Shown: positions 62,113-64,000 of the stretch, piece by piece
Layout of the letters: the number at the start of each line of letters is the position of its first letter
Numbering within the stretch: position 1 is the first letter of the stretch
DNA from: Paguma larvata
Taxonomy: Eukaryota > Chordata > Mammalia > Carnivora > Viverridae
Direction of reading: 5' to 3'
Assembly (NCBI GenBank): GCA_030068075.1
Contig: CM057843.1
Span: 44,237,365-44,301,364, forward strand
DNA: 64,000 nucleotides
The notes under the pieces: model-generated
Database searches by the model: none
The model's input: the letters and a program-made list of their open reading frames with translations, nothing else
Told to the model about the DNA's origin: nothing
Made by a program: the position numbers and the translations under genes

Positions 62113-64000
62113 GCACACCAGGGAAGGACGCTAAAACTCTCAGTCCAAATGAGGATTTCCAATCTTTTAAGTTCAAATCAGACCTCAGAAACTAAAGAAA
62201 AGATCTTTTGATCTACCTGATTGGAGAGAGACAAAGATGGATGGGCAAGAGCATGATAGATCAGTCCTAGTTGCTAGAACTCTACTACTATCCAACGTGA
62301 TATCCAATAGCCAATAGACGTGGTTATTTAAATTTCAATTATTTAAAATTACAAGTTCATTTCCTCAGTCACTCTGGGCACATTACTAGTGTTCAAAAAG
62401 TTCTTACACTGTAGAAAGCTCTACTGGGTAGCTTGGCTTTAAAGAAATGGGCTTTCCTTTCAAAGAGATTATAGAGAATTCTCATCCAAGGGCACCTGGG
62501 TAGCTCAGTCGGTTGAGAGTCCAATTTTGGCCCAGGTCATGACATCATGGTTTGTGGGTTTGACCCCAGCATCAGGCTCTGTGCTGACAGCTCGGAGCCA
62601 GGAGCCTGCTTCAGATTCTGTGCCTCCCTTTCTCTCTCTGATTCTGTGTCTCCCCCCTTCTCTCTCTTTCTCTGCCCCTCTCTCACTTGTGCTCTCTTGA
62701 AAATATATATTAAAAAAAAAAGATGGGGTGCTTGGGTGGCTCAGTTGATTAAGCATTTGACTTCAGCTCAGGTCATGATCTCATGGTTTGTCGGTTTGAG
62801 CCCTGCATCAGGCTGACAGCTCAGAACCCGGAGCCTGCTTCAGACTGTGTCTCTCTCCCTCTGTCCCTCCCCTGCTTGTGCTCTGTCTCTCTCTCAAAAA
62901 TAAACATTAAAAAAAAAATCCCTCCATAAATAACATTAAAAATATATATATATATATATAAAAAATTATCATCCAAATTCAAATGAGTTAAGTATCTGCC
63001 TTCAAACATTTTAACTATTAACTCATATAACAAGAACACTGCCAACTTCTTCCAACTTTTCCCACAGAGAATAGGTAAAAGATTCTGCATTCAGGTCAAT
63101 ATTGATGACTGGTCAGGTAGGCAAAGTAGTGGGGCAGTCCTGGGTAACAGATAAAACTTCTCTGAGGTCTTTGCATGAATATACCTATGAATCCATTTCT
63201 TTCAGTTAACGAAAACAAAGATAGGGACACTTGGGTGGAGTTGGTTGAGTATCCAACTCTTGATTTTGGCTTAGGTTGTGATCTCACGGTTCATGAGTTC
63301 GAACCTGGTGTTGGCCTCTGTGCTGAGAGCAGGGAGCCTGCTCTCAGAGCCTGCTTAGAATTCTCTCACTCTCTCTCTGCCCCTCCTACATTTGCACATG
63401 CATGCACTCTCTCAAAAATAAACATTAAAAAAAAAAAAAAACCAAACAAAAAACACAAAGATATTTTTCAGACATCATATCCCTGAAAGACCTAAATCCC
63501 ATGTCCCCCAACTCAATGATGCTCAGGGAATAAAGTTAGTCACTAAGCCTAAGGTACCTACCTCGAAGCTCACGTGGCTGTAGGAATGAAGGCTGCCCTG
63601 GACTCCAATTCTGTTCTGTTATATTTAGTTGTGCCACGTCTTGCTCAAGTCCACTTGTAGTAGAATCCACAGGAGCCTCCCAGGTTCCAGTCTTAGCAGG
63701 TGGAGGAGGGGTAGTTTCTGGGACTGGAGGTGCTGGATTCAGCCCTTCAGGTGGAGGGGGCACCTCCTCTGCAACCTTGACTGCATCTCCAGCTTTGATT
63801 CTTGTTCTTCTTGCCCGGGAATAGGATTTCTTCTCAACAGGCCTATCAGGGGCCGGTGGTGCGGTGTCAGGAGCAGCAGCTGGAATCTCAGAGGCTGCCT
63901 CTTCCTTCTCAGGACTGCCAAGCACTTGAGCATCAGCTTCTGGAGATGGATCCCTCACAGGAGTCTGCTCTAGGCGCCGTGACCGGTAACTAGCTTCATG
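56170..64000 (-). CDS. CASC3: CASC3 3' half, exons 7-13 and 3'UTR
   Basis: Coding exons lie at 63,562-64,000 (partial), 61,005-61,069, 60,463-60,577, 60,113-60,211, 59,641-59,855 and 58,908-59,030, plus a terminal exon starting near 57,868. All internal joins are in frame. The product is the Pro/Tyr/Gln-rich C-terminal half of CASC3, linked in the literature to mRNA localisation and decay rather than to eIF4A3 binding. Counting exons 1-12 with the expected 66 bases for exons 2 and 3 gives 696 codons, which matches the human protein up to its last seven residues. RAPGEFL1 follows about 3 kb downstream on the same strand, as in other mammals. Confidence 0.95.
56186..56191 (-). terminator. CASC3: CASC3 polyadenylation signal AATAAA
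   Basis: A canonical hexamer on the minus strand, about 1.7 kb after the terminal exon start. It is the first AATAAA followed by clearly non-exonic sequence before RAPGEFL1. Confidence 0.7.
56243..56263. repeat. (AAC)n in the CASC3 3'UTR
   Basis: About seven AAC units near the polyadenylation site; GTT in the transcript. Confidence 0.9.
57975..58115. mobile_element. Chimeric tail-to-tail CAN-SINE
   Basis: Reversed tail and body (TTTACTGTTTATTTTTTAG, (AG)n, GAATCCCAAGCAGGCTCTGC) switches near 58,065 to forward body and tail (ATTCTCTCTCCACCTTTCTC then AAAATAAACATTAAAA). It is the same design as 20,136-20,520. Confidence 0.75.
57990..58033. repeat. (AG)n microsatellite
   Basis: About 21 pure AG units in a chimeric SINE just upstream of the CASC3 terminal exon. 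Confidence 0.95.
58470..58682 (+). mobile_element. CAN-SINE in CASC3 intron 12
   Basis: GGGGCACCTAAGTGGCTCAG to an A-rich tail with TTATAA-type flanks. Confidence 0.9.
58908..59030 (-). CDS. CASC3: CASC3 exon 12
   Basis: These 41 codons run APSQVYGGVTYYNPAQQQVQ .. TPQPVTIKPPPPE. The acceptor is TCCCAAG and the donor GTATGT. The exon ends in phase 0, so only a short C-terminal tail remains in the last exon. Confidence 0.95.
59641..59855 (-). CDS. CASC3: CASC3 exon 11
   Basis: These 215 bases encode LHPHQTPAPLPNPGLYPPP .. APTYFSAPGVMNFG .. HLYPNTQ. The acceptor is TTGTCCAG and the donor GTGAGA. It is a low-complexity Pro/Tyr segment containing a run of six prolines. Confidence 0.95.
60113..60211 (-). 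CDS. CASC3: CASC3 exon 10
   Basis: These 99 bases encode LQFQGPIYTHGDSPAPLPP .. MHLPHPG. The acceptor is TTTTACAG and the donor GTAAGC. The segment is Pro-rich and in frame with both neighbours. Confidence 0.95.
60463..60577 (-). CDS. CASC3: CASC3 exon 9
   Basis: These 115 bases encode GVQGGRAKRYSSQRQRP .. HISIMEGHYYDP. The acceptor is ATTTCAG and the donor GTGAGT. The basic AKRYSSQRQR segment is typical of the CASC3 middle region. Confidence 0.95.
60708..60822 (+). mobile_element. Older short CAN-SINE variant in CASC3 intron 8
   Basis: GAAGAGCATGCAACTCTTGA. GGCAAAATGAGG before and TGCAAAATGAAT after. Confidence 0.85.
61005..61069 (-). CDS. CASC3: CASC3 exon 8
   Basis: These 65 bases between acceptor ATTACAG and donor GTACAG encode GMPNHIHMGAGPPPQFNRM then EEM. 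Joins to exons 7 and 9 are in frame. Confidence 0.95.
61192..61432 (-). mobile_element. CAN-SINE in CASC3 intron 7
   Basis: Reversed copy; ACAAAATTCTTTTTAAA before and ACAAAATTCCTTTTAAA after. Confidence 0.92.
61533..61554. repeat. (AC)n microsatellite
   Basis: Eleven AC units in CASC3 intron 7. Confidence 0.95.
61903..62108 (+). mobile_element. CAN-SINE with A30 tail
   Basis: AAAATGCACA before; a pure A tail of about 31 bases, then ATCATGCACA. A long pure tail suggests a young insertion. Confidence 0.92.
62278..62440. mobile_element. hAT-Charlie-type remnant in CASC3 intron 7
   Basis: It contains CCAATAGCCAATAGACGTGG, TTTAAATTTCAATTA and CACTCTGGGCACATTACTAG, resembling the same GCTGTCCAATA class. 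It is degraded. Confidence 0.35.
62491..62722 (+). mobile_element. CAN-SINE with doubled CT body
   Basis: TCTGATTCTGTGTCTCC occurs after an earlier TTCAGATTCTGTGCCTCC, a partial internal duplication of the body. Confidence 0.9.
62725..62930 (+). mobile_element. CAN-SINE
   Basis: GGGGTGCTTGGGTGGCTCAG; abuts the preceding copy and is followed by an (AT)n run. Confidence 0.9.
62943..62961. repeat. (AT)n
   Basis: Nine AT units after a SINE tail. Confidence 0.9.
63221..63435 (+). mobile_element. CAN-SINE, head partly deleted
   Basis: GGGACACTTGGGTGGAGTTGG lacks CTCA of the A box. ACAAAGATA flanks both ends. Confidence 0.9.
63562..64000 (-). CDS. CASC3: CASC3 exon 7, 3' part, cut by the window end
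   Basis: The exon reads VRDPSPEADAQVLGSPEKE, then a Pro-rich region, EKKSYSRARRTRIKAGDAVK and QNWSPGQPSFLQPRELR, with donor GTAGGT at 63,561. It is the direct continuation of the exon at 1-380. Its first 133 bases in gene direction (64,000 to 63,868) duplicate 133-1. Confidence 0.97.

Follow-up and report, generated by a model that had tools for sequence, protein, structure and literature searches.

The window analysed here, i.e., the whole stretch of 64,000 bases from Paguma larvata, appears to close on itself as a circle would, and this appearance is most likely due to an ordinary assembly error. On the basis of the assembled sequence, a heterotype false duplication, that is, two overlapping contigs mostly representing two alleles that were left unmerged, is in our opinion a very probable explanation, and we are close to certain that the cause lies in the assembly, be it of the heterotype or of the homotype kind. 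What was directly observed is a pair of tandem copies, a gap placed at their junction, a divergence at the level of alleles, and clusters of indels at the gap-facing ends of both copies.

Position of the Window in the Assembly

By direct comparison, bases 1-133 of the window, which fall inside a CASC3 coding exon of the first copy, are identical at 133 of 133 positions to bases 63,868-64,000, which fall in the same CASC3 exon of the second copy; the same repeat was also recovered among the repeat families of the window. A search of the whole assembly (2,437,312,244 bases, i.e., 2.44 Gb, in 1,492 contigs) with bases 1-500 returned two places only, corresponding to the positions of both copies. 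The end repeat reported by an earlier, sequence-only reading of this DNA is, hence, confirmed in full. It should be underlined that the copies share 291 identical runs, 119 of which have a length of 133 bases or more, so that an exact identity of this length is unremarkable here: this repeat simply marks the points of the two copies at which the window happens to begin and end. The apparent closure arises because the offset between the copies is near 64 kb and a window of 64,000 bases was laid across the pair.

The window corresponds to C21:44,237,365-44,301,364, in the interior of a scaffold of 57,883,418 bases (57.9 Mb), which rules out a circle as well as a small linear contig. The idea of a 63.9-kb circular DNA of extrachromosomal nature, or of a linear contig (of 63.8 kb in the earlier proposal) closed artificially, draws on the exact repetition of 133 bases at the window ends. 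Nevertheless, sequence continues on both sides of the block, the tested flank segments are single at full length, and the two copies are not identical; both versions were rejected on placing the window inside the scaffold, and we attribute to them practically no chance of being correct.

Organization of the Two Copies

A further 60 kb on the left and 80 kb on the right were added to the window, and the resulting 204 kb were compared with themselves by BLAST, retaining matches of at least 93% identity and at least 90 bases (E 1e-20); coordinates extend past the window in both directions, base 0 adjoining base 1. The comparison revealed one long direct tandem and nothing else, with positions -49,911 to 13,900 matching positions 14,001 to 77,941. 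Copy 1 (63.8 kb; C21:44,187,453-44,251,264) enters the window with bases 1-13,900, on the forward strand, as the right-hand end of the left contig, and copy 2 (C21:44,251,365-44,315,305) occupies bases 14,001-64,000, on the same strand, as the left-hand end of the right contig. Between them, exactly at the copy junction, lies the scaffold gap of 100 N (13,901-14,000). The window has no other N run, and the 204 kb contain no further gap of 100 N. The homology reaches the gap edge on both sides, from the last base before it to the first base after it, and leaves no base without a partner. The tandem alignment consists of eight BLAST pieces of 98.7-99.7% identity, and the seven breaks between them correspond to N in one copy (six cases) and to a simple repeat of unequal length (one case). 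The end of copy 1 was found twice, in both of the places expected, the second match being at C21:44,312,418-44,315,305.

Where the block starts, the copies are offset by 63,912; this value is 63,867 where the window wraps and 64,041 where the block ends. Indels between the copies account for the variation, and the last change falls in part inside an N stretch. The period of 63,867 previously proposed for the whole sequence is, thus, a local value. As to the accompanying test, whether the source goes on past position 64,000 as a copy of position 134 onward, the scaffold first reads N, then positions 69,001-77,941 are a 98.7% copy of positions 4,958-13,900, and at 77,941 the copying stops. Outside the block, one 3.5-kb segment was searched for per flank, and each has a single full-length occurrence: the left one among 40 scored out of 11,956 candidates, the right one among 40 scored out of 34,479; the remaining matches of both segments are short, scattered, and repeat-like.

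Two direct copies on one scaffold might also be explained by a real and young tandem segmental duplication (about 0.3% diverged), giving two CASC3 genes, possibly polymorphic, whose junction the assembler did not close. The overall substitution level of 0.33% would fit this possibility. Nevertheless, the gap would need to start and to end exactly on the duplication junction, which has no continuous sequence, being the N gap itself, and no repeat that might have mediated the event was found at the outer boundaries. Indeed, the comparison of the 4.0 kb around the left boundary with the 3.7 kb around the right one yielded no direct repeat above the chance level, its output being two direct matches of 13 and 16 bases (E 0.40) and four inverted matches of 23-102 bases. 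Taken together, these data make a real duplication a very improbable explanation; were it true, we would be dealing with a lineage harboring two CASC3 genes. Unequal crossing-over between flanking repeats was likewise discarded, in view of outer boundaries lacking a direct repeat above the chance level.

Divergence Between the Copies

Leaving aside every position at which one copy or the other is N, the two copies differ by 193 substitutions over 58,332 compared bases (0.33%) in the whole overlap, 127 of which are transitions and 66 transversions. The alignment contains 117 gaps, three of which (two overhangs of 200 bases that had been deliberately added and one gap in an N stretch) were excluded from the indel counts; the remaining 114 small indels comprise 45 that lengthen or shorten a run of repeated units and 69 of other kinds. 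In the interior of the block, defined as positions 20,001-74,000 in copy 2 coordinates, 141 substitutions were counted over 48,433 bases (0.29%), and at least one substitution is present in 29 of the 30 two-kb bins having comparable sequence. With an interior divergence of 0.29%, a transition/transversion ratio of about two, and length changes in repeated units, the differences between the copies look like allelic ones, as far as the sequence can tell. We infer that the copies would represent alleles and that the chromosome of the animal would carry one copy.

This bears on the proposal, put forward from the sequence alone, that the same contig had been placed twice in a scaffold with a 100-N spacer. 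The general leaning of that reading, which sought the cause in the assembly at the N gap, holds, and the proposal comes close; the notion of a single contig is wrong in this detail, since differences at the level of alleles (0.29% in the interior) make the copies look like two contigs with overlapping ends and not one contig repeated.

Accumulation of Indels Beside the Gap

One-base indels lying outside homopolymers (of five or more bases) are 52 in total, and they are not evenly distributed. Thirteen of them fall at the start of copy 2 (its first 6 kb; 5,987 bases), 24 at the end of copy 1 (its last 4 kb; 3,912 bases), and 15 in the interior (48,433 bases). Compared with the interior, the excess is 7.0-fold at the start of copy 2 (Fisher p 2.6e-6) and 19.8-fold at the end of copy 1 (Fisher p 7.2e-18), p-values which are flattering, since the split into regions was drawn after the per-bin table, the contig ends being where overlapping contigs predict errors. 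The cluster in copy 1 spans positions 11,288-13,084, i.e., 0.8-2.6 kb before the gap, where 23 of the 24 indels of this end are found together with bunched substitutions, whereas the excess at positions 14,001-20,000 is a difference between the copies that is not assigned to either of them. Substitutions, too, are in excess in the last 4 kb of copy 1 (40 over 3,912 bases, 3.5-fold), and the first 6 kb of copy 2 show no such rise (12 over 5,987 bases, ratio 0.69, p 0.24).

Runs of substitutions at adjacent bases were observed near the end of copy 1, at positions 10,658-10,664 and 11,382-11,386; they have the appearance of paired indels misaligned in noisy sequence. The very end of this copy, about 0.7 kb long (13,156-13,900), shows no differences, the last substitution being at position 13,155 and the preceding 1.8 kb being noisy. 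Such a clean stretch at the contig end itself weighs against the heterotype reading, as does the start of copy 2, where indels alone are in excess.

As a whole, the pattern on the two sides of the gap looks like that of poorly polished contig ends. An accumulation of indels at gap-facing ends is not expected for a biological duplication, and their concentration at both of these ends argues further against a real duplication of the locus. The same clusters agree with a homotype false duplication, also an assembly artefact, in which one haplotype would have been assembled twice and the differences between the copies would represent sequencing errors. Duplications of this kind are known at contig boundaries, where scaffolding gives rise to tandem copies with a gap between them, according to PMC8081667, and a difference in consensus quality at a contig boundary is what the gap-side indel clusters, an indirect measure, point to. 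Nonetheless, the interior substitutions (0.29%), with transitions about twice as frequent as transversions overall, look allelic and are spread over 29 of the 30 comparable bins; moreover, homotype overlaps are, according to PMC8081667, approximately one read in length, for which 64 kb is long. A homotype origin is, thus, unlikely in our judgement, even though we give it more weight than a real duplication.

Genes Located in the Duplicated Block

The CASC3 gene was located by tblastn (matches above 75% identity), using the human protein as a query. In copy 1, the first coding exon lies at positions 13,317-13,562 of the reverse strand (93% identity over 82 amino acids), and its counterpart in copy 2, detected by tblastn as well, is at positions 77,358-77,603, past the window. 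Copy 1 also harbors, on the reverse strand, exons at positions 569-748, 1,268-1,420, and 1,504-1,671, whose copy 2 counterparts fall in an N stretch past the window. The exon that comes after these extends from position 382 to position -307 on the same strand as a single match in one frame; the uninterrupted CASC3 exon that had been obtained by joining the two window ends is, therefore, present in the true upstream sequence and not only by wrapping. Later exons were matched in copy 2, again on the reverse strand, at positions 58,905-59,048, 59,641-59,859, 60,111-60,221, 60,455-60,577, and 63,560-64,000.

Both copies share the first coding exon, a nearby short exon, and the sequences corresponding to residues 345-491, 514-554, and 549-585, and the presence of the first exon and of several later ones in both of them is also what a real duplication would produce. 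Only copy 1 gave matches for residues 102-344 (past the window, copy 2 reads N); residues 586-698 were matched in copy 2 only, their copy 1 counterparts being partly N. The indel cluster at positions 11,288-13,084 touches two short exons of CASC3 that copy 1 has near the gap, and both are altered, as judged by eye: one has gained one base, and the other has an altered stretch and a shifted splice donor. In copy 2, the same two exons, also judged by eye and against the human sequence, read the residues of human CASC3.

A RasGEF-like exon lies in an open frame of copy 2 at positions 42,583-43,737 of the reverse strand; its match to PF00617 (E 0.00064, 20.1 bits) is below the Pfam cut-off of 23.1, and the search of 10 of the 81 listed open frames against Pfam gave nothing besides this single sub-threshold match. 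The name RAPGEFL1, previously given to this frame, is in agreement with the mammalian gene order. The claim that the sequence also carries part of WIPF2 was not confirmed: in the block and in the 10 kb to its left, some stretches of which are N, tblastn above 75% identity gave just a match of seven residues. As for interspersed repeats, the motif GGGTGGCTCAG, the head of the CAN-SINE elements of carnivores, has 46 matches in the window with at most one mismatch, against 1.84 expected, and AATAAACATTAAAAAA, a tail motif, has five exact matches in the window. By themselves, the two motifs would suggest a carnivoran, perhaps a felid.

Origin of the Duplication and Comparison with Known Systems

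If the heterotype interpretation is correct, the left contig, ending at position 13,900, and the right contig, beginning at position 14,001, would both span the same locus of approximately 64 kb, made up of CASC3, the RasGEF-like gene, and the adjoining sequence, mostly as two alleles. The assembler would have left the overlapping contigs unmerged, and the scaffolder would then have joined the two in a row, a spacer of 100 N between them; a window of 64,000 bases cut across the pair would start and end near the same point of the locus, thereby mimicking closure. The locus matters as a caution only: an annotation of this assembly could list two CASC3 genes, one of them with false frameshifts, and a doubled neighbour, which are probably absent in the animal. 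It also illustrates that a window spanning two overlapping haplotypes can be mistaken for a circular molecule.

A search of the literature retrieved no paper on a tandem duplication of CASC3 and RAPGEFL1. A true allele-specific tandem duplication, reported in PMC8081667, lay inside one contig. With true tandem segmental duplications, the locus studied here shares the presence of gene-bearing copies in direct tandem; it differs from them in the gap placed on the junction, in the indel clusters beside the gap, and in that no mediating repeat was found. The resemblance to homotype false duplications, as outlined in PMC8081667, concerns the tandem copies with a gap and the worse consensus near contig ends, whereas the present overlap is 64 kb long and has allele-like differences throughout.

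The closest likeness is with the heterotype false duplications of the Vertebrate Genomes Project and with the heterozygous overlaps of purge_dups. In PMC9516828, PMC8081667, and PMC7203741, such cases consist of two allele-like copies on one scaffold with a gap between them and genes that are falsely doubled. In PMC8081667, heterotype duplications are described as haplotypes that entered the primary assembly as contigs of their own. PMC7203741 refers to retained overlaps as heterozygous overlaps and states that, to the knowledge of its authors, such overlaps are not dealt with by scaffolders based on long-range data. The three papers classify these cases by read depth and read k-mers, whereas our assignment is based on the assembled sequence. 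A gap separates the duplicated pair on one scaffold also at this locus, where no difference in kind from heterotype false duplications was seen.
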